Below, piece by piece: positions 298 through 62,457 of a DNA stretch of 64,000 nt. The first letter of the stretch is position 1, and the number at the start of each line of letters is the position of its first letter. The translations under genes were made by a program, and so were the position numbers. Below the pieces are notes generated by a model. The model searched no databases and was not told the DNA's origin. It saw only the letters and a list, made by a program, of their open reading frames with translations. Source of the DNA: Demequina sp. NBRC 110057 (lineage in GTDB: Bacteria > Actinomycetota > Actinomycetes > Actinomycetales > Demequinaceae); NCBI RefSeq assembly GCF_002090175.1, contig NZ_BBRN01000003.1, positions 930,001-994,000 on the forward strand, read 5' to 3'.

Positions 298-1658
298 CCC
301 ACCGGGCCGTCCGTGACCTTGGTGCCCACCACGACGGCCCCGTGGGGCGCGCGGGCGGCAAACGACAGGGAGGGGACGCCGCGTGCGGCGTCCCACGCGG
401 GGAACACCACGGCATCCACCGACTCGTCGCCGCCGCGAGTGAAGCGGCCGCGGCCGTGGGAGGTGAGCCCGGCCACGGCATCGGCCGTCACCACGATGCG
501 CCGCGACGCCTGGACCTCCTGCGTGGGAAGCTCGTAGTCCACGATCTCCCACTCGCCCACCAGGGCGGACGCGTCCGCGGGCCAGGTCGACTCGTCGTCG
601 TTTTCGTGCTCGCCCGCCCACGGCTGTACCGCGACGAGCGGCCAGCCCTGCTGGGTCCACACGAGCCTGCGCACCTGCACCTCGTGCTGGCGCGGCTCGT
701 CGGGAAGCCGGGTGTGATGCACCAGGAGCTGGCGCCCCGGCTCGGTCAGCACGGCGGCGTGGCCGGGGCCGAGGAGTCCAGGGGTGGCCTCGAGGCGGTG
801 GCTCGCGAGGACGGTGAGGCCGATGCGCTCGGGGTCACCCTCGAGGTCGGTCATGGAGCGGCCGTCCGCGTCGACGTAGGGGCCCTCGATGGCATCGGCC
901 ACCGCGACGCGCACGTGATACGTGCTCACCAGGGAGTCGTAGGACACGATGAGCGCCCACCCGCCGCCGGGGCGGGGGATGACGTACGGGCCCTCGATCG
1001 CGGTGTCCACCGACGGCGCACGGCGCGCGATGAGCGTGCCGAGGTCCGATGCCGGGGCCCCGTCGGAGCCGAGTGCGAAGCCCGTGGCCGGGTCGATCTC
1101 GAGGATGTGAAGGCCGCCGAAGAAGGAGCCGTAGACGAGGTGATGACGGTCCCCGTCGATCACCAGCTGGGCGTCGATGGCGTTGTGGCCGTCGCGCTCG
1201 TGCTGGGTGGCGACCACGACGCCGCGGTCCTCCCAGGGGCCCGCCGGGTGGGGCGCCACGGCGAGGCCGACGGCGGACGTGCGCGACCCGAAGGTCGACG
1301 CCGAGTAGTACATGCGCCACTCGTCGGGGGCGACGCGCACCACGTCGGGCGCCCACAGGCCGTCTGCCCCCGACCACTCGCGCGCGGGGCCGGGAACGCC
1401 GTCAAGCGCCCACCCGGCAAACTCCCACGTCACCAGGTCGGACGAGCGCCGCACCTGGGCCCCCGCACCGGGCAGCGGACCGTCGGCGTGGGCATCGGTC
1501 GAGAATAGCCAGTAGGTGCCGTCGTCGTCGCGCACGGCCGTCGGGTCGTGCGCGTGGCGCGCTCCCCAGCTGGCGGTGATGCCCGAAACGTCGCTATGGA
1601 GGCGTAGCTCCGCCCCGGCCCCGCGCTCCATGCGCGGGGCCTCGTCGAGGTGCGTCAT
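294..1658 (-). CDS. GH43 glycosidase, cytoplasmic (arabinan/arabinoside degradation)
   Basis: A 454-residue glycoside hydrolase family 43 protein without a signal peptide. The three GH43 acidic residues are visible: Asp38 in HDPTAV (general base), Asp162 in NAIDAQ (pKa modulator) and Glu222 in AIEGPY (general acid). The five-bladed propeller spans about residues 30-340; a C-terminal beta-domain of about 100 residues follows. It is the fourth gene of the importer operon and starts 1 base from the malG-type permease stop, so it probably hydrolyses imported arabino-oligosaccharides inside the cell. Exact specificity (exo-arabinosidase or arabinanase) cannot be read from the sequence. Confidence 0.88.
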   Translation of the reverse strand: MTHLDEAPRMERGAGAELRLHSDVSGITASWGARHAHDPTAVRDDDGTYWLFSTDAHADGPLPGAGAQVRRSSDLVTWEFAGWALDGVPGPAREWSGADGLWAPDVVRVAPDEWRMYYSASTFGSRTSAVGLAVAPHPAGPWEDRGVVVATQHERDGHNAIDAQLVIDGDRHHLVYGSFFGGLHILEIDPATGFALGSDGAPASDLGTLIARRAPSVDTAIEGPYVIPRPGGGWALIVSYDSLVSTYHVRVAVADAIEGPYVDADGRSMTDLEGDPERIGLTVLASHRLEATPGLLGPGHAAVLTEPGRQLLVHHTRLPDEPRQHEVQVRRLVWTQQGWPLVAVQPWAGEHENDDESTWPADASALVGEWEIVDYELPTQEVQASRRIVVTADAVAGLTSHGRGRFTRGGDESVDAVVFPAWDAARGVPSLSFAARAPHGAVVVGTKVTDGPVG

Positions 1659-1659
1659 G

Positions 1660-2604
1660 TCAGACCTTGGATCCCGTGAGTGCGACGGACTCGATGATCT
1701 GGCGCTGGAAGATGAGGAACACGACCAGGATGGGCAGCACCGAGATGACCGATGCCGTCATGATCAGCGGGTAGTCGCGCTGCGTCGCGTACTGGACGTT
1801 CATGTTCGCGATCACCACCTGGAGGGTCTGCTTCTCGGGCGAGTTCAGGTAGATGATGGGCGCGAGGTAGTCGTTCCAGACCGCCATGAACCACAGGATG
1901 AACTGCGCCGCGATGGCGGGACGGATCAGCGGGACGATGATGGTCCAGAAGATGCGCAGGTACGAGGCGCCGTCGATCTTCGCGGCCTCCACCAGCCCGT
2001 CCGGCACGTTGTGCAGGTACTGGCGCAGGAAGAAGATCATGATGACGTTGCCCAGGATCACGGGGACGATCAGGGGCAGCAGCGTGTCGACCCAGCCCAG
2101 GTTCGAGAACAGCACGAACTGAGGGATCATCAGCGTGGGGAACGGCACCATCATGCCGCTGAGCAGCGCGATGAAGATGGCGTTTTTGCCCGGCAGGCGC
2201 AGCTTCGCGAGGGCGAAGGCCGCGAGCGCCGAGAAGACGGTGCCGATGATCGTGACGGTTCCCGCGACGATCAGCGAGTTCTTGATGCCGGACAGCACGT
2301 AGGTGTCGTCGAACACGCGCACGTAGTTGTCCCACACGAAGGGGTCGGGGATCCACTGCGGCGGCAGGGAGTAGACCGCGTCCTTGGTCTTCAGCGACGT
2401 CGAGAGCATCCACAGCAGCGGGGCCGCCATGAACACGGCGCCGAGCGAGAGGATGCCGAACAGGGTCCAGTTGACGGCCTTGTTCTCCTCGGTGCCCGAG
2501 CGGCCGGCGAAGGGGTTGCGGTTGATCTTGGGCGCGCGGTTCTCAGTCTCGGTGAGCTGGGCCGCGGTGCTGGCAGCGGCGGCGGTGTTGGTGGTGAGGC
2601 TCAT
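1660..2604 (-). CDS. Carbohydrate ABC importer permease, MalG/AraQ type
   Basis: A 314-residue inner-membrane permease of the binding-protein-dependent CUT1 class. It has about six hydrophobic helices and the cytoplasmic EAA loop EAAKIDGASYLRIFW, which docks to the ATPase. The N-terminus is an extended Ala/Thr/Glu-rich stretch before the first helix at about residue 45. It lies 13 bases downstream of the partner permease and directly ahead of the GH43 gene. No ATPase gene is present in the operon, so a shared MsiK-type ATPase elsewhere is inferred, as is usual for actinobacterial CUT1 importers. Confidence 0.92.
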   Translation of the reverse strand: MSLTTNTAAAASTAAQLTETENRAPKINRNPFAGRSGTEENKAVNWTLFGILSLGAVFMAAPLLWMLSTSLKTKDAVYSLPPQWIPDPFVWDNYVRVFDDTYVLSGIKNSLIVAGTVTIIGTVFSALAAFALAKLRLPGKNAIFIALLSGMMVPFPTLMIPQFVLFSNLGWVDTLLPLIVPVILGNVIMIFFLRQYLHNVPDGLVEAAKIDGASYLRIFWTIIVPLIRPAIAAQFILWFMAVWNDYLAPIIYLNSPEKQTLQVVIANMNVQYATQRDYPLIMTASVISVLPILVVFLIFQRQIIESVALTGSKV

Positions 2605-2617
2605 GGGTATCTCCGCC

Positions 2618-5464: not shown

Positions 5465-6754
5465 ATGCGCGCGACCACACCCCCGATGGGCTGGAACAGC
5501 TGGGACTGTTACGGCACCACGGTGACCGAGGACGAGGTGCTCGCAAACGCGCGCCACCTCGCCGAGCACCTGCTCCCGCTCGGCTGGGACACTGTCGTGG
5601 TCGACATCGCCTGGTACGACCCGACGGCGAAGGCGCACGGCTACAACGCCGACGCTCCCCACACCCTCGACGGCTTCGGCCGGCAGCAGCCCGCGGCCAA
5701 TCGCTTCCCGTCCGCCGTCGACGGCGCCGGATTCGCCCCCCTCGCCGCCCAGGTGCACGCGCTCGGCCTCAGGTTCGGCCTCCACCTCATGCGGGGCATC
5801 CCCCGCCTCGCCGTGGAACGCGACCTTCCCATCGAGGGCACCGAATGGACGGCACGCGACGCTGCCGACACCTCCGACACCTGCGCGTGGAACCCCGACA
5901 ACTACGGGCTGAACTTCGCGCACCCCGCGGCTCAGGCCTACATGGACGGCCAGATCGCGCTGTTCGCCTCGTGGGGCCTCGACTTCATCAAGGTCGACGA
6001 CATGCTCGCGCCCTATCACGACGATGCCATCGAGGCGCTGGCCCTCGCCATCGAGCGCTCGGGCCGCGACATCGTGGTCTCCCTGTCCCCCGGCACGCAC
6101 CTGTCCACGCAGCACGTGCCGCACCTCACCGAGCACGCGCAGATGTGGCGCATCTCCGACGACCTGTGGGACCGCTGGGAGGACATCCACGCCCAGTTCG
6201 CCCGCCTCGCCCGGTGGGCGCCGTTCCAGCGCCCTGGCGCGTGGGCCGATGCCGACATGATCCCGCTGGGCCGCATCGGCATCCGCGCCGAGCGCGGCGA
6301 GCCCAGGGACAGCCGCCTCACGCTCGACGAGCAGCGCACCCTGCTCACGCTGTGGTCCATGGCGCGCTCGCCCATGATGCTCGGCGGCGACCTTCCCACC
6401 TCGCGCGAGGACACGCTCGCGCTCCTGGCGAACCCTGCCATCACCACCGTCGTCGAGGGCTCGACGGACGGCCGCGAGGTCACCCGCGAGCCCCTCGAGG
6501 GGGGCGAGCTCATCGCCTGGAGCGCCTGCGATGCCCGCTCCGAGCGCCGATACGCCGCGCTGTTCTGGACCGGCGAGGCCGACCACGCCGCCAGGGTGCC
6601 GCTCGCGAGCCTCACCGGGCTGCCGCATCGGCCGCTCACCGTGACGCACCTGTGGGAGGGAGTCACGGACGCGCGCGTCGACGGCACCGACCTCGTCGCC
6701 ACCATCCCAGCCCACGGCGTGGTGTGGGTCGCCCTCGACGAGGCGGCGGCATGA
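5465..6754 (+). CDS. GH27 glycosidase (alpha-galactosidase or beta-L-arabinopyranosidase)
   Basis: A 429-residue glycoside hydrolase of family 27. It begins with the family motif PPMGWNSWDCYG. The expected nucleophile is Asp178 in DFIKVDDML and the acid/base lies in ISDDLWDRW (Asp232 or Asp233). There is no signal peptide, so it acts in the cytoplasm. Start chosen at ATG 5465 because the longer frame would include the LacI-type operator. Family members are alpha-galactosidases or beta-L-arabinopyranosidases; the operon with GH43 and GH51 arabinan enzymes favours the latter, or removal of side-chain galactose. First gene of the rightward operon; its stop overlaps the next possible start. Confidence 0.85.
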   Translation: MRATTPPMGWNSWDCYGTTVTEDEVLANARHLAEHLLPLGWDTVVVDIAWYDPTAKAHGYNADAPHTLDGFGRQQPAANRFPSAVDGAGFAPLAAQVHALGLRFGLHLMRGIPRLAVERDLPIEGTEWTARDAADTSDTCAWNPDNYGLNFAHPAAQAYMDGQIALFASWGLDFIKVDDMLAPYHDDAIEALALAIERSGRDIVVSLSPGTHLSTQHVPHLTEHAQMWRISDDLWDRWEDIHAQFARLARWAPFQRPGAWADADMIPLGRIGIRAERGEPRDSRLTLDEQRTLLTLWSMARSPMMLGGDLPTSREDTLALLANPAITTVVEGSTDGREVTREPLEGGELIAWSACDARSERRYAALFWTGEADHAARVPLASLTGLPHRPLTVTHLWEGVTDARVDGTDLVATIPAHGVVWVALDEAAA

Positions 6755-6771: not shown

Positions 6772-7848
6772 ATGACGGCCGATGCCGTGGCCGCCCGGCC
6801 GCGTGGACGCGGCTGGCTCATCGGCGGCGCGGCAGCGGCGGCAGCCGCCGTCGTAGCAGCCGGGCTGCTGGTGTGGGGACTGTGGGGCTCGGGAGAGCCC
6901 GCCGCGACGAGGCTCGACCTCTCGGGAGACATCGCCACTCACGACCCTGCGCTCGTCGTCGGGGACGAGGGCGAGGACTGGTACGTGTATTCCACGGGCG
7001 ACGTGCGCGTCGGGCTCGGGGCGCCGCAGATCAGGCGCTCGACCGACGGCGGCGAGACGTGGGAGATGGTCGGCACCGCCTGGGACGCTCAGACCCGGCC
7101 CGAGTGGGTCTACGAGGCGGTTCCCGGCGTGGAGAACTTCTGGGCCCCCGAACTGTACGAGCACGACGGCACCTGGTACCTGTACTACGCGGCGTCGACC
7201 TTCGGCTCGAACCGCTCCGTCATCGGCCTCATGACCTCGGCCACGCTCGACGTGGACGCGGACGACTACGGATGGACGGACCAGGGACAGGTGTGGGCCT
7301 CCGATCCCGCCACGTCGACCTACAACGCGATCGACCCCGGCATCGTCGAGGACGCCGACGGCACACCGTGGATGGCTTTCGGGTCGTTCTGGGGCGGCAT
7401 CCAGATGGTGCAGCTCGAGTGGCCGTCGGGACTCGCGGCCAAGGGCACGGAGCCCACGCTGCTGGCCAGCCGCAACACCCCCACCAACGCCATCGAGGCC
7501 CCCTACATCGTCGAACGCGACGGGTGGTACTACCTGTTCGTGTCCCGCGACAAGTGCTGCTCGGGCACCGACTCCACCTACTCGGTGGCGGTGGGCCGCT
7601 CGCAGTCCGTCACGGGCCCGTACCTCGACTCGTGGGGCAACGACATGCGCTACAACGGCGGCGACGAGCTGCTGTCGACGCGCGGCGACATGATCGGCCC
7701 CGGCGGCCAGTCCGTCTCCGGCGGCTACCTCGCCACGCACTTCTACGACGGCGCCAACGGCGGAGCCTTCCGGCTCGATGTTCGCGAGCTCGGCTGGACC
7801 GACGACGGCTGGCCCGTCGCCTGGACCGAGGACGAACTCACCGACTGA
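6772..7848 (+). CDS. GH43 arabinanase, membrane-anchored
   Basis: A 358-residue GH43 enzyme, endo-arabinanase-like. An N-terminal anchor (GWLIGGAAAAAAAVVAAGLL) is followed directly by the catalytic propeller, so the enzyme is held on the outer face of the membrane. Catalytic residues are in THDPAL (Asp58), NAIDPG and AIEAPY. DKCCSGTDSTYSV and GPGGQS followed by THFYDG resemble the conserved loop and calcium-binding region of endo-1,5-alpha-arabinanases. Start: an ATG at 6751 overlaps the GH27 stop (ATGA), but ATG 6772 has AGGAGG five bases upstream and is preferred. It would cut arabinan outside so that the ABC importer can take up the fragments. Confidence 0.88.
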   Translation: MTADAVAARPRGRGWLIGGAAAAAAAVVAAGLLVWGLWGSGEPAATRLDLSGDIATHDPALVVGDEGEDWYVYSTGDVRVGLGAPQIRRSTDGGETWEMVGTAWDAQTRPEWVYEAVPGVENFWAPELYEHDGTWYLYYAASTFGSNRSVIGLMTSATLDVDADDYGWTDQGQVWASDPATSTYNAIDPGIVEDADGTPWMAFGSFWGGIQMVQLEWPSGLAAKGTEPTLLASRNTPTNAIEAPYIVERDGWYYLFVSRDKCCSGTDSTYSVAVGRSQSVTGPYLDSWGNDMRYNGGDELLSTRGDMIGPGGQSVSGGYLATHFYDGANGGAFRLDVRELGWTDDGWPVAWTEDELTD

Positions 7849-9473: not shown

Positions 9474-9533
9474 TCGCGTCTGCGCGACGGTGAACGGCAG
9501 CGGCTACAGCACGGCCGATGCCGTAGCCGGGGG

Positions 9534-10236: not shown

Positions 10237-10324
10237 TGGCGGAGGATAGGGGATTCGAACCCCTGAGGGCTTGCACCCAACACGCTTTCCAAGCGTGCGC
10301 CATAGGCCACTAGGCGAATCCTCC
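10237..10324 (-). tRNA. tRNA-Ser (anticodon GGA)
   Basis: Acceptor stem GGAGGAT pairs with ATCCTCC, the T-loop reads GGTTCGAATCC, and a long variable arm is present as expected for serine. The anticodon loop CTTGGAAAG gives GGA, reading UCC/UCU. Discriminator G and an encoded CCA end the gene. Its position beside the SRP RNA and dnaX is common in Actinobacteria. Confidence 0.97.
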
Positions 10325-10398
10325 AGGCCCGTAGATGTTACCGGAGGGAACGCGGATCACCTAACCGGCTCCCGGCAGACGCATCGGCCGGCTGCCGT

Positions 10399-10404: not shown

Positions 10405-10411
10405 TGTCGGC

Positions 10412-10499
10412 GACCCCCCACGTGGCGATATCTCGCCCAACTCCCCCAGGGCAGGAATGCAGCAAGGGTAAGCGGGCTCTATCGGGTGCGTGGGGGGTC
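10412..10499 (+). ncRNA. ffs: Signal recognition particle RNA (4.5S, small type)
   Basis: A single long hairpin. The closing stem is GACCCCCCAC with GTGGGGGGTC, and the apical domain carries the conserved GGCAGGAATGCAGCAAGGG loop region that binds Ffh. The length of about 88 bases and the tetraloop-type tip fit the bacterial small SRP RNA without an Alu domain. A CCTTTC stretch follows and may end transcription. Strongly supported by motif and by position next to dnaX. Confidence 0.93.
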
Positions 10500-10557
10500 C
10501 TTTCATGCCCGGGTGCGTGCCGCATCGGCCCCCGGCACCTCCCTCCCTTCCGAGGCC

Positions 10558-10694: not shown

Positions 10695-11729
10695 ATGGCT
10701 GACACTTTCCGCGCCGCTGTTGTCCGCAGCTTCGACGCTCCGCTCGACGTCTCCGAGGTCGAGATGCCCACCCCCGGCCCGTTCGAGGCCCTCGTCAAGG
10801 TTGCCTACTCGGGCGTGTGCCACACCGACCTGCACGCCGCCGAGGGCGACTGGCCCGTCAAGCCCACCCCCGCCTTCATCCCCGGCCACGAGGGCGTCGG
10901 CGAGGTCGTCGCTGTCGGTGACCGCGTCACCCGCGTCAGCGTCGGCGACACCGTCGGCAACGCCTGGCTGTGGAGCGCCTGCGGCGAGTGCGAGTTCTGC
11001 GAGGCCGGCTGGGAGACCCTGTGCCTGAAGCAGCAGAACGGCGGCTACTCGGTCGACGGCTCGTTCGGTCAGTACATGCTCGTCGACTCGCGCTACTGCC
11101 CCATCCTCCCCGAGGGTGTGGACCTGGCCGCCGCGGCGCCCATCCTGTGCGCCGGCGTCACGGTCTACAAGGGCCTCAAGCAGACCGACACCAAGCCCGG
11201 CGACTTCGTTCTGATCTCCGGCATCGGCGGCCTTGGCCACATCGCCGTCCAGTACGCGGTCGCCATGGGACGCCGTGTGGTCGCGGTGGACGTGGACGAC
11301 GCGAAGCTGGAGCTCGCCAAGAAGCACGGCGCCGAGATCGCGATCAACGCCGCGACCGTCGAGGACGCCGCGGCCGCGATCCAGGAGGCCACCGGCGGCG
11401 GCGTCCAGGGCGCGCTCGTCACCGCTGTCAACGGCAAGGCCTTCCCGCAGGCGGTCGGCTCGCTGCGCCGCGGTGGCACCGTCTCGCTCGTGGGCCTTCC
11501 CCCGGAGCAGTTCCCGCTCGACATCTTCTCGGTGGTGCTCAACGGCTGGACCGTCCGCGGTTCGATCGTCGGCACGCGCCGCGACATGGAAGAGGCCATC
11601 GACTTCTTCGCCCGCGGCAAGATCACCCCGACCTACTCGGTCGAGCCGCTCGACAACATCAACGACATCTTCGCCCGGATGCACGCCGGCAAGATCGACG
11701 GTCGCATCGTGATGGACCTGGGCAACTAA
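10695..11729 (+). CDS. adhP: Zinc-dependent alcohol dehydrogenase, AdhP type
   Basis: A 344-residue medium-chain dehydrogenase oxidising or forming primary alcohols such as ethanol with NAD(H). Catalytic zinc ligands lie in GVCHTDLH and in GHEGVGEV; the structural zinc is bound by CGECEFCEAGWETLC. The nucleotide-binding motif is ISGIGGLGHIAVQYA. ATG 10695 is preceded by GGAAGGAAA. It stands alone between the SRP RNA and dnaX, with its own palindrome-rich upstream region and a hairpin after the stop. Substrate range is inferred from the family. Confidence 0.9.
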   Translation: MADTFRAAVVRSFDAPLDVSEVEMPTPGPFEALVKVAYSGVCHTDLHAAEGDWPVKPTPAFIPGHEGVGEVVAVGDRVTRVSVGDTVGNAWLWSACGECEFCEAGWETLCLKQQNGGYSVDGSFGQYMLVDSRYCPILPEGVDLAAAAPILCAGVTVYKGLKQTDTKPGDFVLISGIGGLGHIAVQYAVAMGRRVVAVDVDDAKLELAKKHGAEIAINAATVEDAAAAIQEATGGGVQGALVTAVNGKAFPQAVGSLRRGGTVSLVGLPPEQFPLDIFSVVLNGWTVRGSIVGTRRDMEEAIDFFARGKITPTYSVEPLDNINDIFARMHAGKIDGRIVMDLGN

Positions 11730-11756: not shown

Positions 11757-11798
11757 CGCATCGGCCCTTCGCAGCAGACGCTGTGGAGGGCCGATGCG
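11757..11798. terminator. Hairpin built from an inverted GCATCGGCC pair
   Basis: CGCATCGGCCCT and AGGGCCGATGCG form a perfect 12-bp stem with an 18-base loop. It follows adhP and ends 18 bases before the dnaX -10 box, so it probably terminates adhP transcription. It consists of two copies of the 9-mer repeated throughout the window. Confidence 0.65.
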
Positions 11799-11816
11799 CG
11801 TGTCGGCGGCGGCGGT

Positions 11817-11822
11817 TAGGCT
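11817..11822 (+). promoter_or_regulatory. Leaderless -10 box of dnaX
   Basis: TAGGCT is followed by 7 bases and the GTG start of dnaX. No ribosome binding site is present, so transcription probably starts at the GTG itself. Confidence 0.6.
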
Positions 11823-11829
11823 CACTCCC

Positions 11830-14616: not shown

Positions 14617-14919
14617 CCCCGCCTCACGCTGCCCCCGCCCCGCCTGCCCCACCTCCTGGCGGTAGATACACGGCGGACGCCGCCACCCATCGCGACGTTC
14701 GCGGTCGATTCTCGGTGACTGGCCGCCGCGATGGCCATCCCGCGACGACGGCCGCCCCACCACGAGGGCGGGCCCGACGCCAGGGCCGGCCACGGCATCG
14801 GCCCCACCCGGGCGTACCACCGGGCGTCTACCGCCAGGGCGCCCGCCACGCCCCCTCCCCGCCGTGTCTCTACCGCCACGAGGTGGCGGCGGGAGGCGCG
14901 GAGGAGGCCTATGCTGGGG
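14617..14919. other. Gene-free region with short inverted repeats
   Basis: About 300 bp between the convergent recR and ABC permease genes. CCTGGCGGTAGA at 14655 is exactly inverted at 14827 (TCTACCGCCAGG), and a third partial copy, TCTACCGCCA, is at 14869, where CCGCCAC and GTGGCGG can pair. One GCATCGGCC word is at 14795. No credible ORF was found. The repeats may be terminators or decayed mobile sequence. Confidence 0.6.
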
Positions 14920-39316: not shown

Positions 39317-39350
39317 GTCCCGCGGCATCGGCCGTCCGCACGCGCGCCCC

Positions 39351-44056: not shown

Positions 44057-44065
44057 GACTTCCCC

Positions 44066-44100
44066 CATATCGTTTTTCGTTGTTATCGAAAAACGATATG
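44066..44100. promoter_or_regulatory. Palindromic operator of the DUF2975-HTH operon
   Basis: CATATCGTTTTTCG and CGAAAAACGATATG form a perfect 14-bp inverted repeat with a 7-base spacer. Overlapping it, TATCG-AAAAA-CGATA (44084-44098) is itself a perfect palindrome. The region is strikingly A+T-rich and starts 9 bases before the DUF2975 ATG, so a repressor here would block both transcription and translation. Confidence 0.7.
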
Positions 44101-44131: not shown

Positions 44132-44162
44132 GGCCGATGCCTTGGCGACCACCGCATCGGCC
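44132..44162. repeat. Inverted GGCCGATGC pair between divergent genes
   Basis: GGCCGATGC (44132-44140) and GCATCGGCC (44154-44162) can form a 9-bp stem with a 13-base loop. Both flanking genes are transcribed away from it, so it is not a terminator for either. Confidence 0.75.
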
Positions 44163-44284: not shown

Positions 44285-46909
<2,625 letters not shown>

Positions 46910-48550: not shown

Positions 48551-48673
48551 GGCGTACCTCCTGCTTCACGTCGTCCGCTGGCGGCGGACCGGTGACACCA
48601 CCCTAGGGCAGACGGCCCCGGCGCCCCCGACATTGGTGCTGGCCGCCGCGGATGCCGGCCCGGGCATCGGCCC

Positions 48674-49707: not shown

Positions 49708-49745
49708 GCCGTGGCATCGGCCCCACAGACGGCCGATGCCACGGC
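49708..49745. terminator. Terminator from inverted GCATCGGCC pair
   Basis: GCCGTGGCATCGGCC and GGCCGATGCCACGGC form a perfect 15-bp stem with an 8-base loop, between the convergent reductase and mutY genes. Confidence 0.8.
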
Positions 49746-49774: not shown

Positions 49775-50677
49775 CTAGAGGGAGTACAGGCCTCGCCGGT
49801 CGTCCGCGACGGTGACGAGGCCGTCGGCGACCAGCGACGCCAGGCATGAGTCGAGCTGGCCCGGCTCCACGTCCTCGAGGGACGCCTGCCCCGTGATGTT
49901 GAGCGGGGCGTGGGCGGCGCGCAGCAGCGCCATGATGCGCCCACGTACCTGCCGATCGGTGCCGTGCCAGGCCTGCGTGCGTCGCGGGGCGGCGTCCAGC
50001 CCAGGCGACCCCGCCGCGAGCCAGGCACAGTCAGCGGCGATCACGCACTCGTCGCAGCGGGGAGCGCGCGCGGTGCACACCAGCGCGCCCAGCTCCATGG
50101 ACCCGGCGTTCCACTCCACCGAGGCGGTCGTGTCCGCGGGTACCAGCGCCGCAGCATGCTCGCGCTCGGTACGGGTGAGGTGCGCGGGCGGCAGCGGCTG
50201 CGCCCTCCACGCACGGCCGATGACCCGGCGGACGTTCGTGTCGAGCACCACGTCGCGCTCGCCGAAGGCGAAGGCGCGCACGGCGGCAGCGGTGTAGGCG
50301 CCGATGCCCGGCAGCGCCAGGAGCGCCTCCTCGCCCGGGGGGACCTCACCGCCGTGGCGGTCGACGAGGGCGGCCGCGCACTCCCACAGGCGCTTGGCGC
50401 GGCGCGGGTAGCCGAGCCTTCCCCACGCCCGCACGGCGTCGGCCTGGGAGGCTGCGGCGAGGTCCGCGGGCGTGGGCCAGCGCGCCATCCACTCGCGCCA
50501 CACCGGCTCCACGCGCACCACGGGCGTCTGCTGAAGCATCACCTCGGACACCAGCACTCCCCAGGCGGTGCAGTCCTCGCGCCGCCACGGCAGGTCCCTC
50601 GCCTCGCGCGCGAACCAGTCGACCACGGTCGCGACTCGGGGGTCCATGGGTGCGGCGGGCGGCATGCCCTCCATCAT
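49775..50677 (-). CDS. mutY: A/G-specific adenine glycosylase
   Basis: A 300-residue base-excision-repair enzyme removing adenine opposite 8-oxoguanine. Motifs: SEVMLQQTPV (catalytic Glu), LPGIGAYTAAAVRAFAFGE (helix-hairpin-helix), VVLDTNVRRV (Asp) and Fe-S ligands C-x6-C-x2-C-x5-C (CTARAPRCDECVIAADC). The C-terminal part is a short winged-helix-like domain instead of the NUDIX-type domain of E. coli MutY, as in other Actinobacteria. Start is uncertain: ATG 50677, 50674, 50665 or 50647; the frame to 51103 overlaps the divergent gene and is rejected. Confidence 0.92.
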   Translation of the reverse strand: MMEGMPPAAPMDPRVATVVDWFAREARDLPWRREDCTAWGVLVSEVMLQQTPVVRVEPVWREWMARWPTPADLAAASQADAVRAWGRLGYPRRAKRLWECAAALVDRHGGEVPPGEEALLALPGIGAYTAAAVRAFAFGERDVVLDTNVRRVIGRAWRAQPLPPAHLTRTEREHAAALVPADTTASVEWNAGSMELGALVCTARAPRCDECVIAADCAWLAAGSPGLDAAPRRTQAWHGTDRQVRGRIMALLRAAHAPLNITGQASLEDVEPGQLDSCLASLVADGLVTVADDRRGLYSL

Positions 50678-52796: not shown

Positions 52797-53969
52797 ATGG
52801 CCCAGGACACACTGCCCGGCGAGGACCCCACGCAGCGCGGCGACGCGCGCGAGCCCGTCGCCCCCTCGAAGCCCGCGTTCCCCACCACCGGGGCGACCCC
52901 CGCGGTGCCGCAGGACGTGCCCGGCGAGGACGGCGACATCATCGCCCCGGTCGCCCAGCCCGACCACGAGGAGATCCTGCCCACCCGCGTGACTCCGCCC
53001 GAGCCGGACGCGGCATCGGCCACCCCGTCGGCGCCTCTGGGAGACCCCGTGCACGAGCTCGGCGCGCAGGCGGTGCGCGACGCGTCGCTCGCGGCGTCCG
53101 GCGCCACCCCCATCGTCACCCGCCGCTCGCAGCGCACCGCCACGTCCGAATCCGAGAGCGAAGCCCGCCCCGCGTGGACCCCTGGCGATCCGCGCGGCAA
53201 CGCCCCGGAGTCGGCGGCCACCCCCGACTCCTCTGTTCCCAGCGCATCGACGCCGCCCGCGGAACAGTGGGCGACGGACGCCCCCGTCTACCGGCCCGTC
53301 GTGGCCGCGGGGGCCGCGGGGGCCGCCACGGCATCGTCCACCCCGGCGGAGCCCGCAGCTGCGGGCGATGGCTCCGAAATCCCACCCCTGGCCCCCCAGG
53401 ACGACAAGCAGCCCACCCCCTGGTACCGCGGGGTCGTCTTCCTGACCGCCATGGGCGTGGTGGTCCTGGCGGCGATCGCCTACGGCGTCTACCTGCTGCT
53501 CGACTCCCCGGAGGAGGTGACGATCGCCGCCCCCGAGGTCGTCGAGGTGCAGGCGGAGCCCACCATCGACCCGGTGGCCCTCGAGGACCCCAGCGACTTC
53601 CTCGCGGCGATGCCCACGACCGTGGGTGCCTTCGCCATGACCGAGGCCGCGGCAGTCGAACCGGACGAGGCGGGGCTCGACACTCGCGTGGCCGAGGTCG
53701 ACGACCTGGTCTATCGCGACGGCGACACCACGCTCACGCTACGGGCGATTCAGCACTACGACGAGACCGATGCGACCGAGCAGTACGACGCACTCGCCGC
53801 CGATGGCACCGACTCCCAGCCGGTGACCGTGGCCGGCACCGAGGTCGGCACCCGCGCCACTCTCGAGGGGGACCCCACGCAGTACGTGTGGCGTAACGGC
53901 ACCGCCGTCTTCGTGCTGGCGGGTCCGGCCGATGCGCTCGAGGACTTCTGGATCCAGTTCCCCATGTAA
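52797..53969 (+). CDS. Membrane protein with disordered N-terminus, unknown function
   Basis: A 390-residue protein. The first 200 residues are Ala/Pro/Thr/Glu-rich and disordered and should be cytoplasmic. One transmembrane helix (VVFLTAMGVVVLAAIAYGVY) follows, then an outer domain of about 150 residues (FLAAMPTTVGAFAMTEAAAV onward). No family was recognised. Start chosen at ATG 52797 because the -10 box lies 6 bases before it. The in-frame GCA and TCG codons at 53013 belong to a copy of the repeated 9-mer. Confidence 0.7.
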   Translation: MAQDTLPGEDPTQRGDAREPVAPSKPAFPTTGATPAVPQDVPGEDGDIIAPVAQPDHEEILPTRVTPPEPDAASATPSAPLGDPVHELGAQAVRDASLAASGATPIVTRRSQRTATSESESEARPAWTPGDPRGNAPESAATPDSSVPSASTPPAEQWATDAPVYRPVVAAGAAGAATASSTPAEPAAAGDGSEIPPLAPQDDKQPTPWYRGVVFLTAMGVVVLAAIAYGVYLLLDSPEEVTIAAPEVVEVQAEPTIDPVALEDPSDFLAAMPTTVGAFAMTEAAAVEPDEAGLDTRVAEVDDLVYRDGDTTLTLRAIQHYDETDATEQYDALAADGTDSQPVTVAGTEVGTRATLEGDPTQYVWRNGTAVFVLAGPADALEDFWIQFPM

Positions 53970-54014: not shown

Positions 54015-54854
54015 ATGACCGAGCCCACCGTGTCGCCGTCCACCGCCCCTCGTGTCGCGATCATCGGGGGTGGGGTGATGGGAGGCACGCTCGTGACCGC
54101 GCTGCGCGTCGCGGGCTGGCCCACCGACCGCATCGTGGTCGTCGAGCGTGACGAGGCGCGGTCGCGCGGGTTGCGCGAGGGGCACGGCATCCAGGTCGGC
54201 ACCGACGTTGCCGCGGCCGTGATGGATGCCGACGTGATCGTCATCGCGGTCAAGGTCTATGACACGGCCGATGCCCTGGCGCGGCTCGCCCCCGTCTACA
54301 AGCCCGGGGCGCTGGTCCTCACGGTTGTCGCCGGCCTCACCACCGCGTTCTACGAGCAGCGACTGCCCGAGGGCGCCCCTGTCGTGCGGTCCATGCCCAA
54401 CACACCCTCGATCATCGGCCACGGTGCCACCGCGATCGCGGGCGGCGCCCACGCCGATGAGGGCCACATGGCCCTCACGGTCGACATGCTGAAGGCTACG
54501 GGTCTCGTGGTGACGGTCGAGGAGAGCCAGATGGACGCGGTGACGGCCATCGCAGGCTCGGGCCCCGCCTACTTCTACGCCTTCGTCGAGGCGCTCACCG
54601 AGGCGGGGGTGGGCCAAGGCCTCGACCGCGACCTCGCCACGCAGCTCGCCGCCCAAACCTTCCTCGGCGCCGCACGACTGCTGGTGGACACCGGCGACAC
54701 CCCGGACGTCCTGCGCAAGCGCGTGTCGTCGCCGGGAGGCACCACCATCGAGGCGCTCAAGGCGCTGTCCGATGCCGGCCTCGACGGCGTGGTCGCCGCG
54801 GGGGCCGATGCCGCCGCGCGGCGGTCGCGTCAGCTCGCCGACGAACTCGGCTAG
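54015..54854 (+). CDS. proC: Pyrroline-5-carboxylate reductase
   Basis: A 279-residue NAD(P)H-dependent enzyme catalysing the last step of proline synthesis. Rossmann motif VAIIGGGVMGGTL, VRSMPNTPSIIGHGATAI, and the C-terminal dimer region AGSGPAYFYAFVEALTEAGV with SPGGTTIEALKAL are all present. Length is normal. A single gene, ending 4 bases from the stop of the convergent polymerase gene. Confidence 0.97.
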   Translation: MTEPTVSPSTAPRVAIIGGGVMGGTLVTALRVAGWPTDRIVVVERDEARSRGLREGHGIQVGTDVAAAVMDADVIVIAVKVYDTADALARLAPVYKPGALVLTVVAGLTTAFYEQRLPEGAPVVRSMPNTPSIIGHGATAIAGGAHADEGHMALTVDMLKATGLVVTVEESQMDAVTAIAGSGPAYFYAFVEALTEAGVGQGLDRDLATQLAAQTFLGAARLLVDTGDTPDVLRKRVSSPGGTTIEALKALSDAGLDGVVAAGADAAARRSRQLADELG

Positions 54855-54858
54855 GCCG

Positions 54859-56587: not shown

Positions 56588-57295
56588 TTACTGACGGACG
56601 ATGACGTTTTGCTGGTCGACGTACTGGCCGGTGGGGCCCAGCATCGTCTCGATCACCTGCGCCACGTGCTGCGGCTGCATGATGGTCGTGGGGTCCTCGT
56701 CGGGCGCCAGCACCTTGCGCAGGTCCGTGGCCGTGCGGCCGGGCGACAGGCACACCACCCTGGTGCCGTAGATCTTGAGTTCCTCGCGCATGACCTCGGA
56801 CATGTTGATGACCGCCGCCTTAGACGCCGAGTACGTCAGCCATCCGGAGCGGCCGTTCATGCCGGCGGTCGAGGCGATATTGACGATGACCTCGAACCGG
56901 TTGCCCAGGTGCAGCAGTTCCTGCACCAGCGTGAAGGGTCCGTACACGTTGACGGCGATGGTCCGCTCGAAGTCCGCGAAGTCCACCTGGTGGATCGGCA
57001 CGGGGTTGGTGTACCCGGCGTTGTTGACGAGGAAGTCGATGTTGCCCACCTGCGCGTGCACGCGCGCGATGACGTCGATGAGGGCGTCGCGGTCTCCCAC
57101 GTCGACCGTCTCGCGCACGAGCGTCACGCCCGCGGGGAGCTCCGCCTCGAGGGCGGCGACGTTGTCGTCGTAGGCCTGCGAGGCGCGTGCCATGAGGACG
57201 ATGGTGTCGATGCCGAGGTCGGACGTGGCGAGGCGGCGCACGGTCTCCAGGCCGATGCCCTTGGACGCGCCGGTGACGAGAGCGGTCTTAGACAT
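56588..57295 (-). CDS. Short-chain dehydrogenase, likely ribitol-5-phosphate forming
   Basis: A 235-residue SDR. TGASKGIGLETV binds NADP(H), NNAGYTNP is the structural motif and YSASK carries the catalytic Tyr and Lys; the Ser is in ASTAGM. Beside a CDP-alditol cytidylyltransferase it most likely reduces ribulose 5-phosphate to ribitol 5-phosphate, like the SDR half of Haemophilus Bcs1. ATG 57295 has AGAGG before it and overlaps the cytidylyltransferase gene by 8 bases. Confidence 0.8.
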   Translation of the reverse strand: MSKTALVTGASKGIGLETVRRLATSDLGIDTIVLMARASQAYDDNVAALEAELPAGVTLVRETVDVGDRDALIDVIARVHAQVGNIDFLVNNAGYTNPVPIHQVDFADFERTIAVNVYGPFTLVQELLHLGNRFEVIVNIASTAGMNGRSGWLTYSASKAAVINMSEVMREELKIYGTRVVCLSPGRTATDLRKVLAPDEDPTTIMQPQHVAQVIETMLGPTGQYVDQQNVIVRQ

Positions 57296-58062: not shown

Positions 58063-59928
58063 TCACGGGGAGACGCAGGCGAGCGCGCCCGCCGCGGGCG
58101 CATCACCCTGGCCGGTGAAGCCGAATGTGGCCGTGGCCCCGGCCTCCAGCGTCCCGTTCCATCCCACGTCTCCCACGGTGAGGGTGCCGGACGTCGCGGA
58201 GAACTCGGCCGTCCATTGGTTGACGATCGTGGTGCCCTCGGGCAGCGCGACGCTCACCTCCCATCCCTCGAGCGGGGCGGTGGCGGTCACGGTGACGTCG
58301 GCCACGAAACCCGTGGACCACACGTCGCGCAGCACCATGTCGGCCGTGCACGCGCCAGCGGAGCCGGCGGTGGCCTCGGCGGTCGGGGTTGCGGATGCGG
58401 ACTGCTCATCGTCGTCGGGGTCGCGGGGCAGCGGCCGCGCCGCGCCGATCGCCGGGTTGGCGTTCTCCACCAGTTGCGTGAACTGGGCGGCGAACCACTG
58501 GCCCGAGACGGGGGCGTTGCCCATCGCGTTGGTGGGACGCCCGCCCAACCGATCCGTGGTGTAGCTCGGGTCGCACATGCGGTCGAACCCCTTGCCCTCG
58601 TCATTCGCCACCTCGGAGCTGGAGCCGTCGGACTGGCCCGGCGGCTTGGCCCAGATGAGCGCGTCGAGGTGGGAGTCGGGGAAGCCGGCAGGAAGCGCCT
58701 GGGGAAGTCGCCCCAGCCCAGCTCCCGCCTGGTTGCACCATGCGCCGCGGTGGCCGCGTCGGTCCACCTTGGACGCCTCGACGAACGAGTCGAGCACCGC
58801 GCTCGAGGCCTCGGCGAGGGGACGCGACGGTCCTCCCCAGCCGTTGCGCGAGGTGTCGATCAGCATGCCGATGGAGTCGGGGAAGCCCGCCGCGACCAGC
58901 CGCGCGTAAAGGTCGGCGGTCCAGTCGGCCTCGTCGAAGTTGGCGTTGTACTCGTAGAACGAGGCCGCCTTGACCGGCTGGCCGCCCACCTGCTGCTCGG
59001 GGTCGGTGAGGTAGGGCTCGTCGAGCGGCGTGTAGTTGGCGGTGTTAGTGATGAATCCATCGATGGCGTCGTACCCGGCGTCCGTGCTCGTCACGACATC
59101 GGCGAACAGCTGGGCCGCGGGACCGGCGTTGCTGTCCCACCCGAGCCAGCCGGCGTGCGCGGCGTCGAGGTAGGCGTAGACGTGGTCCAGGCGCGCGAAC
59201 GCGTCGAGCGCGTACGCGACGCCCTCGCGGTAGTACGGGTCGGCGTCCTGGCAGGCCTGCTCGCTCGCGTTGGTGACGAGGTTGGGAAGCGAGTCGGGCT
59301 CGATCAGGGTGACGATGCGCAGGTTGCGGTACTCCTCCTCGGCAAGCATGCTCGCGATCACGTCGATGTAGTCGTGCTCATACGTGTCCAGACCCTCGTC
59401 GGTGGCGGGAAGTTCTCCGTTCGAGGCAAGCGCGTAGCAGTCGCGTCCGGGAAGGTTGTAGACGACGACGGTGAGGACCACGGGCGCGTCGCCGGACTCG
59501 GCCTGCTCCACCGCGGCGTCGAGGTGGTGGCGGAGCCCGGGGCCGTCGGCGTTTCCCTCGATCGCGCTGATCCGGTCCATCCACACGCCCGTGGGCTCAC
59601 GCGACACCACCCGCATCGCGTTGGCGAGCTCGGCGTCCTCCGTCGCGTCCGCTGTCTCGTTCACGAGCGCGGCCCAGGTGTCATCCACGTACATGGTGGC
59701 GCCCTCGTAGGCGTTGTCGACGTGCTCGCCCTCGACGACGGGAACCTCGTGCGCGGGAGCACTCGCGGTGGCCGATGCCGTGGGGTCCGGGCCGGAGTCG
59801 TCTCCGTCGCAGGACGCCAGCGTCAGGGCCGCGGCGGCGGCCACGCACGCGACGGCTCCGCCGCGCAGCGCCGCTCGCGCCGTCGTCGCGGCGCTCCGTC
59901 GCGCATCCTCACCCCTGCGGCTCGCCAT
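58063..59928 (-). CDS. GH6 cellulase, lipoprotein, with C-terminal CBM2
   Basis: A 621-residue surface-anchored cellulase. Lipobox LTLASC places the lipidated Cys at residue 40. The family 6 domain shows VVVYNLPGRDCYALASNGE (catalytic Asp region), VTLIEPDSLPNLVTN and DALIWAKPPGQSDG. After a Thr/Ala/Glu linker the C-terminal part (CTADMVLRDVWSTGFVADVT onward, VGWNGTL) is a family 2 carbohydrate-binding module closed by two Cys. GH6 enzymes release cellobiose or cut cellulose internally. Lipid anchoring plus a CBM would hold the cell on cellulose. GGAAGGGGG precedes ATG 59928. Confidence 0.93.
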   Translation of the reverse strand: MASRRGEDARRSAATTARAALRGGAVACVAAAAALTLASCDGDDSGPDPTASATASAPAHEVPVVEGEHVDNAYEGATMYVDDTWAALVNETADATEDAELANAMRVVSREPTGVWMDRISAIEGNADGPGLRHHLDAAVEQAESGDAPVVLTVVVYNLPGRDCYALASNGELPATDEGLDTYEHDYIDVIASMLAEEEYRNLRIVTLIEPDSLPNLVTNASEQACQDADPYYREGVAYALDAFARLDHVYAYLDAAHAGWLGWDSNAGPAAQLFADVVTSTDAGYDAIDGFITNTANYTPLDEPYLTDPEQQVGGQPVKAASFYEYNANFDEADWTADLYARLVAAGFPDSIGMLIDTSRNGWGGPSRPLAEASSAVLDSFVEASKVDRRGHRGAWCNQAGAGLGRLPQALPAGFPDSHLDALIWAKPPGQSDGSSSEVANDEGKGFDRMCDPSYTTDRLGGRPTNAMGNAPVSGQWFAAQFTQLVENANPAIGAARPLPRDPDDDEQSASATPTAEATAGSAGACTADMVLRDVWSTGFVADVTVTATAPLEGWEVSVALPEGTTIVNQWTAEFSATSGTLTVGDVGWNGTLEAGATATFGFTGQGDAPAAGALACVSP

Positions 59929-59982: not shown

Positions 59983-61020
59983 TCAGGCGGCGAGCACCGC
60001 CGGACGCAGGGCCGCCACGGCGCGCTGCACATCGATCTCGTCGTTGTGCACGTGGAAGCCCACCCTCACGCGGCCGGTCCGCGAGGCGGCGGTGATGCCG
60101 GCGGCGGCGAGGTCGCACGGCTGGGCGGCGAGCGACACCATCGCGCTACCGGTGGGAGCGAGGCCCAACTCGGCACGCAGGGCGTCGGCCAGAGCGGGGC
60201 CGTGGCGATGCAGCGCCGCGGGGTCCTCCGCCGCGTGGGCCTCGAGCGCGACGGCGGCGGCATCGCACAGCTGCCACGGCGGAGAGGTATCGAGCCGGCG
60301 CGCGGTGTCCGCCAGACCCTCCGGGGCATAGAGGCTTTCCCAGGGCAGGTCGGACCCGTACCAGGACGCGCCCACGGGGCGCACCCACCCGAGGGCCGCC
60401 GGGCTCACCGCCGCGAGCGCGATGCCGCGCGGCGCGTTCAGCCACTTATAGGCGGAGGCGACCACCACATCGAAGCGGCGCGCATCGATCGCGAGCCATG
60501 GACAGGACTGGGTGACGTCGATGAGCGTGCGTGCGCCGGCGGCATCGGCCGCGTCCGCGAGCGCGGTCAGGTCGAGGATCCGCCCGTCGCGCGACTGGAC
60601 CGCGGAGACGGCCACGAGGTCGATGCCGGGACGCACCGCGTCGATGAGTCGGTCGAGCGGCACCGACTCGACGGTCAGGCGGGGGTCGGCGACAAAGGGA
60701 CGCACCAGCGACCCGAAGTCGCCGTCGGCGACGAGCACGCGGGCTCCGACGGGAAGGGAGGCCGCCACCGTGCCCACCATCGCGGACGTCGCGCTGGCGA
60801 GGGCGATGTCCTGGGCGCTGGCGCCCACGAGCGTCGCGAACGCGCGCCGGCAGCGCCCGACGGCGGCATCGGCCTCCCGCGGGTCAAACCGGCCGGTCGA
60901 CCAGGCGTCGATCGACGCGTGGAGGGCGGCCGCAGTGGCGCGCGCGGGGAGGCCGTAGCTCGCGGTGTCGAGGTAGCCGCGGGCGGCATCGAAGCCCCGG
61001 GTGAGGGTGTCGCTCAGCAT
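59983..61020 (-). CDS. Class V aminotransferase-family PLP enzyme
   Basis: A 345-residue PLP enzyme of the aminotransferase V / cysteine desulfurase-like superfamily. The cofactor Lys is in VVASAYKWLNAPRG and the phosphate region in ASATSAMVGTVAAS; IDVTQSCPWLAID carries the ring-stacking and Asp positions. Substrate unknown: it lacks the desulfurase Cys loop, and isopenicillin-epimerase-like or kynureninase-like enzymes are its relatives. ATG 61020 has GGAG before it. Divergent from a LysR regulator that probably controls it. Confidence 0.82.
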   Translation of the reverse strand: MLSDTLTRGFDAARGYLDTASYGLPARATAAALHASIDAWSTGRFDPREADAAVGRCRRAFATLVGASAQDIALASATSAMVGTVAASLPVGARVLVADGDFGSLVRPFVADPRLTVESVPLDRLIDAVRPGIDLVAVSAVQSRDGRILDLTALADAADAAGARTLIDVTQSCPWLAIDARRFDVVVASAYKWLNAPRGIALAAVSPAALGWVRPVGASWYGSDLPWESLYAPEGLADTARRLDTSPPWQLCDAAAVALEAHAAEDPAALHRHGPALADALRAELGLAPTGSAMVSLAAQPCDLAAAGITAASRTGRVRVGFHVHNDEIDVQRAVAALRPAVLAA

Positions 61021-61098
61021 GACTCCATCGTGGGGCGCGAGCCAGACCACGACAAGATGGCATATTTAGAGTCCTACCCTCCACGATTTCGAGGTCTC

Positions 61099-61968
61099 AT
61101 GATCGACGTCGAGCGGCTGCTCATCCTGCGCGAGGTCGCGCGCCACGGCTCCAAGGCCGCCGCCGCCCGCTCCCTGCGGCTAGCGGAGCCAACGGTGGCG
61201 CACCACCTGAAGGCGCTCGAAAGGCGCGCCGGAGTGCCGCTCACCACCCGCATCGGCCGCGTGACGCGCCTCACCCCCGCGGGCCAGGCGCTGCTGGAGC
61301 ATGCCGACGCCATCGCCGCGTCGCTCGCGAGCGCGGAGCGCGCCCTCGCCCAGCACGCCGACCTGTCCGGCGGGAGGCTGAGGATCGCGGCGTTCACGTC
61401 GTTCTGCGCGGTCGCCCTGCCCAGCCCCCTCGCGCAGTTCGCGCGCCGCTACCCGGGCGTCGACGTGGGTCTCGTGGAGACGGAGACCGACGATGCGCTC
61501 GCCCTGCTCGCGGCGGGAGAGGTCGACCTCGTCATCGGCTTCGCGGACGACGCGACGCCGGCCCCGACGGACGTGCAGGTCCGCATGCTCGACTCCGACG
61601 AGTACCTCGCGGTGCTCCCCACGGGTCACGCCGCCGCACGATCGCGCGCGGTCGACATCGGCGCGCTTGCCGACGACACGTGGATCTCGGGCTGTCCGCG
61701 CTGCCGGGCCCACCTTCACGAGCTCGCGACCCAGGGTGGCTTCGCCCCGCAGATCGCCTTCCAGACGGAGGACTACGTCACGGTGCAGCGGCTCGTGGCG
61801 GAGGGGCTGGGGGTCGCGCTTCTTCCCCGGATGGCGCTCGCCGCGAGCCCTGACGTGGCGGGCATCGTGACCGTCCCCACCTTGCCCACGTCGTACCGCG
61901 AGGTGTTCCTCGCGCTGCCGCGGGACGCCTCGTCGGCGGCCACCGCCTTCGCCTCGCTGCTGGCCTGA
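61099..61968 (+). CDS. LysR-family regulator
   Basis: A 289-residue regulator. The N-terminal helix-turn-helix is MIDVERLLILREVARHGSKA with AEPTVAHHLKALERRAGVPL; the effector domain contains GGRLRIAAFTSFCAVALPSP and GCPRCRAH. ATG 61099 has GAGGT upstream; a frame open far upstream is only the antisense of the GH6 gene. An A+T-rich box (CATATTTAGAG, 61058-61068) may be its promoter. It is paired divergently with the aminotransferase gene. Confidence 0.92.
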   Translation: MIDVERLLILREVARHGSKAAAARSLRLAEPTVAHHLKALERRAGVPLTTRIGRVTRLTPAGQALLEHADAIAASLASAERALAQHADLSGGRLRIAAFTSFCAVALPSPLAQFARRYPGVDVGLVETETDDALALLAAGEVDLVIGFADDATPAPTDVQVRMLDSDEYLAVLPTGHAAARSRAVDIGALADDTWISGCPRCRAHLHELATQGGFAPQIAFQTEDYVTVQRLVAEGLGVALLPRMALAASPDVAGIVTVPTLPTSYREVFLALPRDASSAATAFASLLA

Positions 61969-61971
61969 GGG

Positions 61972-62457
61972 TTAGCTGTCGCCGGCCTCGCGGGCCAGCA
62001 GGGACCGCTTCACGTCGACGCCCCACGCGAACCCCGTGAGGGAGCCCGATGCCCCGGTCACCCGGTGGCAGGGCACGAACAGGGCGACGGGGTTCGCCCC
62101 GCACGCGGCGCCTACCGCTCGGCTCGCGCCGGGCGAGCCGAGCGCCTGCGCGACGGCCCCGTAGGTGCGCACCTCGCCCGCGGGGATCGCGCGCAGCGCC
62201 TCCCAGACGCGCTCCCTGAACGCGGTGCCGGGCGCCGCTACCGGCACCCTGGCCACGCGCGAGGCGTCACCCGCGTAGTAGGCCGCCACGGCATCGGCCG
62301 CGCGCACGGTGCCGGGCGTGCCGGGGCCGCCCGCGAGGCGCGAGCGGGCGGCGAGCGCGGCGGGGTCATCGGTCCAGCCGGCCGCGACGACGGCGCCGTC
62401 GTCCTCGATCACGACGAAGGGTCCGTCAGGGGTGGCGAGGGTGTCGTGCGTGCGCAT
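61972..62457 (-). CDS. ogt: Methylated-DNA-protein-cysteine methyltransferase
   Basis: A 161-residue suicide repair protein removing alkyl groups from O6-guanine. The active-site motif is PCHRV, and the helix motif GSPGASRAVGAACGANP carries the DNA-flipping Arg. AAAGGA precedes ATG 62457. Its start overlaps the end of the Ada/AlkA gene by 32 bases, so both are translated from one message. Confidence 0.96.
   Translation of the reverse strand: MRTHDTLATPDGPFVVIEDDGAVVAAGWTDDPAALAARSRLAGGPGTPGTVRAADAVAAYYAGDASRVARVPVAAPGTAFRERVWEALRAIPAGEVRTYGAVAQALGSPGASRAVGAACGANPVALFVPCHRVTGASGSLTGFAWGVDVKRSLLAREAGDS

Follow-up and report, generated by a model that had tools for sequence, protein, structure and literature searches.

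The nine-base word GGCCGATGC recurs throughout the stretch studied here, a window of 64 kb (C3:930001-994000) from the 2.73 Mb, 7-contig genome of Demequina sp. NBRC 110057 (Demequinaceae, Micrococcales, Actinomycetota), hereafter G000. The window holds 46 exact copies, 22 on the plus strand and 24 on the minus strand. An earlier note on this DNA, made from the letters alone, had listed 42 copies and named a DNA uptake word, a methylation- or restriction-linked word and a nucleoid-protein site as possible explanations. All 42 positions are real, and those at 6625 (-), 57250 (+), 61250 (-) and 62668 (+) had been overlooked, so that the count was understated. The word is non-palindromic, and its complement is GCATCGGCC. 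The exact matches in the window are as follows, with close inverted copies merged as pairs.

478–486, minus strand: exact copy
818–826, plus strand: exact copy
892–900, minus strand: exact copy
6244–6252, plus strand: exact copy
6625–6633, minus strand: exact copy, new relative to the earlier list
6777–6785, plus strand: exact copy
9513–9521, plus strand: exact copy
10381–10389, minus strand: exact copy, one of two flanking the signal recognition particle (SRP) RNA
10522–10530, minus strand: exact copy, the other of the two flanking the SRP RNA
11758–11797, both strands: inverted pair 11758 (-)/11789 (+), predicted hairpin, overlaps the called dnaX start
13032–13040, plus strand: exact copy within dnaX
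14795–14803, minus strand: exact copy
16759–16767, minus strand: exact copy
17623–17648, both strands: inverted pair 17623 (-)/17640 (+), within the TetR-family gene 17311–17847 (+)
22084–22092, minus strand: exact copy
23876–23925, both strands: inverted pair 23876 (+)/23917 (-), long predicted hairpin 9 bp past the stop of gene 22673–23866 (+)
31400–31448, both strands: inverted pair 31400 (+)/31440 (-), long predicted hairpin between convergent genes 30925–31392 (+) and 31454–32125 (-)
35000–35008, plus strand: exact copy
37474–37482, minus strand: exact copy
38551–38559, plus strand: exact copy
38674–38682, plus strand: exact copy
39325–39333, minus strand: exact copy
39915–39923, plus strand: exact copy
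41198–41206, minus strand: exact copy
41834–41842, plus strand: exact copy
44132–44162, both strands: inverted pair 44132 (+)/44154 (-), between divergent genes 43448–44068 (-) and 44318–46909 (+)
47647–47655, minus strand: exact copy
48664–48672, minus strand: exact copy
49714–49739, both strands: inverted pair 49714 (-)/49731 (+), predicted hairpin between convergent genes 48686–49702 (+) and 49775–50677 (-)
53013–53021, minus strand: exact copy
53927–53935, plus strand: exact copy
54266–54274, plus strand: exact copy
54803–54811, plus strand: exact copy
57250–57258, plus strand: exact copy, new relative to the earlier list
59770–59778, plus strand: exact copy
60542–60550, minus strand: exact copy
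60866–60874, minus strand: exact copy
61250–61258, minus strand: exact copy, new relative to the earlier list
62291–62299, minus strand: exact copy
62668–62676, plus strand: exact copy, new relative to the earlier list

Abundance, codon choice and paired copies

The 46 copies far exceed expectation. In 100 dinucleotide shuffles of the window the word occurred 2.42 ± 1.56 times (maximum 6), close to the two copies that had been estimated before, and Markov models of orders 0 to 5 predict 1.9, 2.4, 3.6, 3.7, 5.6, and 11.8 copies. The whole genome contains 2,018 copies, 1004 on one strand and 1014 on the other, so the equal use of both strands noted for the window holds genome-wide. The reversed word, used as a control, is found 110 times (60 + 50). 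The resulting density of 739 per Mb corresponds to about one copy per 1.3 kb, which fits the one per 1–1.5 kb of an uptake sequence, as does the strand symmetry. Anatomy, gene context and spacing were analyzed in a 464-kb sample of G000, consisting of the window and another 400 kb. Under a fourth-order model, no other 9-mer with 20 or more occurrences in this sample reaches the z-score of GGCCGATGC (359 copies vs. 44 expected).

The copies are spaced nearly at random (coefficient of variation 1.03). In 50-kb blocks, which span 464 kb of the 2.73 Mb and were laid out without reference to the position of the replication origin, the strands are roughly balanced; the strongest lean is 96 to 74 across 200 kb of contig C4. 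A replication-oriented word of the KOPS or Chi type was rejected on this balance within the blocks together with the genome-wide counts. The genome-wide spread and the equal strands could also be expected if GGCCGATGC were the binding site of a chromosome-organizing or nucleoid-associated protein, with ≈1 site per 1.3 kb and a specificity that has diverged between clades, and the word is denser between genes (1.63 per kb) than within them (0.69 per kb), which fits such a site as well. KOPS, Chi, matS, and parS sites are replication-oriented or clustered, unlike this word with its near-random spacing and lack of consistent strand skew.

The nine-base core is sharply bounded, since all 27 one-base variants are found at 0 to 1.74 times expectation, and a weaker half, approximately nGyGGC, follows downstream of it. 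A restriction-modification or orphan-methylation word would be another possible identity. HIP1 of cyanobacteria, GCGATCGC, is likewise short and highly repeated in genomes. HIP1 is a palindrome, while GGCCGATGC is not its own complement, and an uninterrupted run of nine fixed bases flanked by a weaker half fits such a word poorly.

Most copies (290 of 359) lie inside called genes, 67 are intergenic and 2 straddle a gene boundary; genes were called with a simple codon-usage caller of our own and not taken from the annotation. When the codons of the 424 genes were shuffled synonymously (40 shuffles), only 39.1 ± 4.2 in-gene copies were obtained (maximum 49), compared to the 290 observed. Seven words were counted in this test, one of them being the complement of another, which leaves five distinct controls. 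These were found at 0.5 to 1.9 times their own shuffle means, with the highest value (29 vs. 15.6) seen for the one-base variant GGACGATGC.

The main reading frames of the in-gene copies are xADA (151 copies), ASA on the reverse strand (80 copies) and a reverse frame that mostly reads xIGx (48 copies). In the window genes GCA makes up 5.2% of the Ala codons, which agrees with its earlier description as otherwise rare, and GAT 11.3% of the Asp codons. In the 464-kb sample, however, GGCCGATGC encodes 151 of the 337 Ala-Asp-Ala tripeptides, though GAT accounts for only 10.6% of Asp codons, and GCATCGGCC encodes 80 of the 244 Ala-Ser-Ala tripeptides, though GCA accounts for only 5.0% of Ala codons. 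The two tripeptides themselves are found 1.62 and 1.53 times as often as expected, whereas their permutations stay near expectation (AAD 0.95, DAA 1.19, AAS 1.03, and SAA 0.99). The word therefore shapes codon choice and partly also the proteome.

Codon usage, amino-acid content or base composition could in principle produce such a count, as the in-gene copies mostly encode residues that are common at 70% GC. Codon usage accounts for 39 of the 290 in-gene copies, even the order-5 model falls well short of the count in the window, and the word is denser between genes than in coding DNA. We regard the chance that composition alone explains the word as negligible. The earlier note had named two outcomes that would refute its reading, counts near a third-order Markov expectation and an enrichment fully due to Ala-Asp-Ala codon usage; both were checked, and neither was observed.

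Of the 21 pairs of copies that are no more than 60 bp apart, 17 are inverted. Several of these are predicted to fold into long stems, located either immediately downstream of a stop codon or in the gap separating convergent genes, and the predicted hairpins (e.g., 23876/23917, 31400/31440, and 49714/49731) have no obvious T-run. The pair 11758/11789 sits between gene 10695–11729 (+) and dnaX, 11794–13950 (+). Further upstream of dnaX there is a small SRP RNA gene (10409–10505) and a tRNA-Ser (GGA) gene (10237–10324). The intergenic density is highest between convergent genes (3.03 per kb), followed by co-directional (1.65 per kb) and divergent genes (1.30 per kb). These features are what would be seen if the word arose secondarily from transcription terminators or from a repeat similar to the repetitive extragenic palindromes (REP). 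Such an origin is very improbable in our view, as the great majority of the copies are found in genes, at most 42 of the 359 are part of a close pair, and close pairs are few in the sampled relatives, with only 6 of 11 and 4 of 7 being inverted.

Dialects in the family

Three words were counted in whole genomes of a family set of 47, and stretches of 8 to 60 kb from each of 41 other genomes as well as 40 pilus loci were sampled. The number of GGCCGATGC copies in the 47 genomes ranges from background to 2018. A k-mer survey of the sampled stretches (42 genomes including G000) suggested that one group of genomes favors GGACGATGC, and in whole genomes this word has 929–1864 copies in 16 of the 47 and 13–275 in the remaining 31. 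For a further form, CCCGACGCT, 988 copies were counted in G037, compared to 46 for the control, 335 in G027 and 9–124 in the other 45. With thresholds of at least 300 per Mb for GGACGATGC or at least 225 per Mb for GGCCGATGC, based on rounded genome sizes and with labels assigned by hand, 18 genomes belong to the first dialect (GGCCGATGC), 16 to the second (GGACGATGC) and 1 to the third (CCCGACGCT), while 12 have none at threshold. G018 passes both thresholds and was labeled GGACGATGC. In G037 (L075, L076) the 10-mer CATGTGCGTA is also strongly over-represented, with 7 copies vs. 0.0 expected in the 40 kb sampled.

The inner core CGAyGC, as read from the words, is common to all three, and the downstream G.GGC is similar in the three dialects, with only 16 sites for CCCGACGCT. 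Synonymous shuffling of the sampled stretches gave the same picture for each dialect: 194 vs. 26 copies for the first (12 genomes), 280 vs. 44 for the second (16 genomes) and 12 vs. 1.1 for the third (1 genome).

The two main dialects follow the housekeeping-gene tree. On a tree of alaS, mltG, and aroC, which covers 39 of the 41 genomes with a pilus locus out of the 47 in the family (aroC from 22 only), the first dialect needs 4 changes compared to a mean of 13 after shuffling of the labels, and the second 2 compared to 12. The two-dialect label on quick single-gene trees of 22 to 33 genomes each requires 1 change for alaS and 2 each for mltG, comEA, and comEC.

The two main dialects replace each other in place at some sites. 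In DNA of the 16 second-dialect genomes that is homologous to G000, 24 of 260 GGCCGATGC positions read GGACGATGC and 16 read GGCCGATGC. Among control 9-mers, 224 of 101,634 (0.2%) show the same C-to-A change, and a more stringent context gave 3 of 1,911. At word positions of G000, GGACGATGC was found in 0 of 251 cases in 16 first-dialect genomes and in 0 of 69 in 7 others. These numbers are genome-by-site cells, and the 24 switched cells represent 9 distinct sites and partly share descent; four of the sites are in the Ala-Ser-Ala frame, where Ala becomes Ser, and three are outside called genes. Three close first-dialect relatives (79–81% identity) keep the word at 15 of 28, 12 of 25, and 18 of 30 positions, whereas control 9-mers are retained at 20, 16, and 21%, a nearly threefold difference. 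Seven second-dialect genomes keep GGCCGATGC at 8 of 187 positions vs. 14% of controls. Genomes that share the dialect therefore preserve the word, and those of the other dialect lose or replace it.

These results also bear on the two alternatives from the earlier note, both of which fit worse than an uptake word to a sharp, non-palindromic 9-mer with clade dialects and replacement in place. Pressure that alters proteins and dialect replacement at homologous sites are, in our judgement, unusual for nucleoid-protein sites, and we consider an identity of this kind unlikely. For a methylation word, the dialects differ at bases that a methyltransferase must read (no search for a methyltransferase was made); this explanation is more doubtful still, although it seems marginally less remote than a terminator origin.

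Outside the genus, GGMCGATGC was counted in 248 genomes of the order. The 18 Demequina genomes drawn have ≈400 to 810 copies per Mb, and the 229 genomes from outside the family have at most ≈220 per Mb, a value reached in family f20. In several genomes of this family (e.g., G098, G238, G248, and G268) the motif is found at ≈7 to 11 times the reversed control, which is below Demequina (19 times in G000), and ratios of this size were also seen in a few members of families f4 and f11. This excess may reflect composition or a weak related word. In 53 pooled loci of other genera (1.096 Mb), GGCCGATGC has 26 copies, the same number as its reversed control. The 53 loci were chosen from 80 by dropping those of the family itself (L144-L164 and L182) and those under 9 kb. 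Since all of them surround the same operon, other words with high counts in the pool were read as conserved protein motifs.

Elsewhere on contig C3, G000 contains a word-free insert (G000:C3:58972-60791, L033/L034) with about 50–56% GC in a genome of 71% GC. It carries two genes, one of which encodes a HEPN_MAE_28990/RiboL-PSP-HEPN protein, while the second open reading frame encodes what we take to resemble a DUF262 protein. The couple is possibly a defense pair. The idea that the largest word-free gap is a ribosomal operon was dropped, as there was no Rfam match and the gap holds the low-GC insert.

Competence genes and receptor candidates

The machinery expected for an uptake sequence, a type IV pilus together with ComEA and ComEC, is present in Demequina as judged from its genes. 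In G000, comEA (SLBB and helix-hairpin-helix domains) and comEC (Competence and lactamase-like domains) are adjacent, and a type IV pilus operon has the order pilB, pilT, pilC, pilA, three pilin-like genes, pilD, pilM, and a pilN-like gene. Across the family, pilB was found in all 47 genomes and comEC in 46, including every one of the 43 good-quality genomes. The best matches of the G000 PilB protein are from Demequina, led by Demequina sp. NBRC 110051 (93%). Pfam matches name pilB, pilT, pilD, pilM, comEA, comEC, dnaX, and the pilins; the third pilin scores just under the Pfam cut-off and the fourth has no match. The names alaS, mltG, aroE, aroC, metE, pilC, and pilN were given by eye from the sequence.

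A second, stand-alone pilin is encoded next to a gene read as metE, and non-operon relatives of it are found in most genomes. As a receptor for the word it is unsupported, because it is acidic in the sequences aligned and six dialect-bearing genomes show only the operon pilin at E ≤ 1e-5. A Pro near its N-terminus that seemed dialect-specific in 11 sequences is absent in G001, G003, and G031, which belong to the GGCCGATGC dialect. The minor pilins of the operon find no support in this role either, since their types, like the trees of six operon genes, cross the dialect border. The pilus operon is a mosaic (L141, L224-L263) in which divergent pilin-like genes lie between a conserved pilB and aroC in both dialects, and many relatives show no detectable match to the three pilin-like genes of G000 at their places in the operon.

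Several observations weigh against an uptake function. No receptor was found, and no pilin examined tracks the dialect: the pilB, pilT, pilC, pilA, pilM, and pilD trees need 4–7 dialect changes. The stand-alone pilin has an isoelectric point of 4.1–4.5 in the 12 of 21 proteins that were aligned (G001, G003, G009, G019, G021, G024, G025, G029, and G031 were left out), and G006, G007, G014, G017, G040, and G042 have no non-operon pilin match at E ≤ 1e-5. Twelve of the 47 family genomes lack a strong word (G027 has a weak third form), yet 11 of them have comEC and all 12 have pilB, and on the alaS, mltG, and aroC tree the label "none" is unclustered (6 changes vs. 6.5 after shuffling). In genera such as Cellulomonas a pilB relative is present and the word is absent from the stretches examined, and the machinery therefore does not predict the word. 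Second-dialect genomes retain an excess of GGCCGATGC (76 in-gene copies vs. 42 shuffled in 16 genomes), and G018 still has 664 copies. Two more distant first-dialect groups retain the word only modestly above controls (13 of 83 vs. 8% and 18 of 101 vs. 13%), its density varies with the GC content at third codon positions of the genes (0.28 to 0.87 per kb), and the sampled relatives show no enrichment of inverted pairs like that in G000.

Among the genomes without a strong word form, G004, G034, and G043, as well as G044 to G046 outside the genus, have both comEC and pilB. In these genomes the system may have been lost, or the word form may not be among the three found.

A likely uptake word and its known counterparts

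The enrichment, the dialects and the replacement in place together support the reading that the earlier note named first, and from these patterns we infer uptake itself. We therefore hold it to be likely that GGCCGATGC works as a DNA uptake sequence in Demequina. We also think it probable that a third DNA uptake sequence system has evolved independently in Demequina, with no precedent in a Gram-positive phylum, and that it comprises three or more dialects (GGCCGATGC, GGACGATGC, and CCCGACGCT).

In the mechanism that we propose, the competence machinery would include a surface receptor with a preference for word-bearing DNA, so that most of the DNA entering a cell would come from its own kind. 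Alleles with the word would gain in every cycle of uptake and recombination, and words would thus accumulate even in genes. The price of this build-up would be amino-acid changes, visible as the excess of Ala-Asp-Ala and Ala-Ser-Ala. A new dialect would arise when the receptor changes, and would later overwrite the old sites.

Cells of Actinomycetota have no Gram-negative outer membrane. If GGCCGATGC is an uptake sequence, no outer-membrane secretin is needed for such a trait to evolve, and natural competence is predicted for Demequina. Recognition of a species' own DNA would then be a general outcome of competence and not a quirk of two proteobacterial families. The system would also offer a clean test of whether such words spread through drive by uptake or through selection, and dialects combined with in-place replacement would provide a search rule for further cases.

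Our literature search, which covered few subscription papers, found nothing on Demequina with natural competence or an uptake sequence, no match for GGCCGATGC or GGACGATGC, and no match for over-represented uptake sequences and competence in Actinobacteria. Uptake sequences, natural transformation and self-recognition in actinobacteria otherwise yielded a paper on a Neisseria species, a review, and papers unrelated by their titles. A 2025 paper states that uptake sequences are known only from Neisseriaceae and Pasteurellaceae (PMC12616744), and a 2020 paper likewise names two families (PMC7811141). GGCCGATGC would thus likely be the first uptake tag known outside two Gram-negative families. 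By sequence it is outside both known families of uptake words, and by its behavior, as far as this can be read from genomes, it matches their functional class.

Like GGCCGATGC, the DNA uptake sequence (DUS) of Neisseriaceae is short and over-represented, and its dialects agree with the core-genome tree and have an inner core in common, in that case CTG (PMC3630211). The CTG core is absent from GGCCGATGC and GCATCGGCC, and the core in Demequina is ≈CGAyGC. Uptake in Neisseriaceae proceeds through type IV pili, for which Demequina has genes. Their DUS receptor ComP has an electropositive stripe (PMC3630211), in contrast to the acidic stand-alone pilin of the actinobacterium Demequina.

The uptake signal sequence (USS) of Pasteurellaceae is similar in abundance; in its 10-base form it reaches 1014 per Mb in H. 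influenzae 86-028NP (PMC7811141), compared to 739 per Mb for GGCCGATGC in G000. It also has dialects, of which two are described, and its receptor is itself only predicted (PMC12616744). The words are unrelated, as GGCCGATGC does not contain AAGTGCGGT and the GCGG core is absent from both GGCCGATGC and its complement. Terminators built from paired DUS or USS are described (PMC12616744); the inverted GGCCGATGC pairs of G000 recall these, but in the relatives sampled close pairs are few and not predominantly inverted. Within the actinobacteria, the transformable Micrococcus luteus also has comEA and comEC homologs, but it carries Flp/tad pili and no comGA-F cluster (PMC6370729), whereas Demequina carries an operon for type IV pili.

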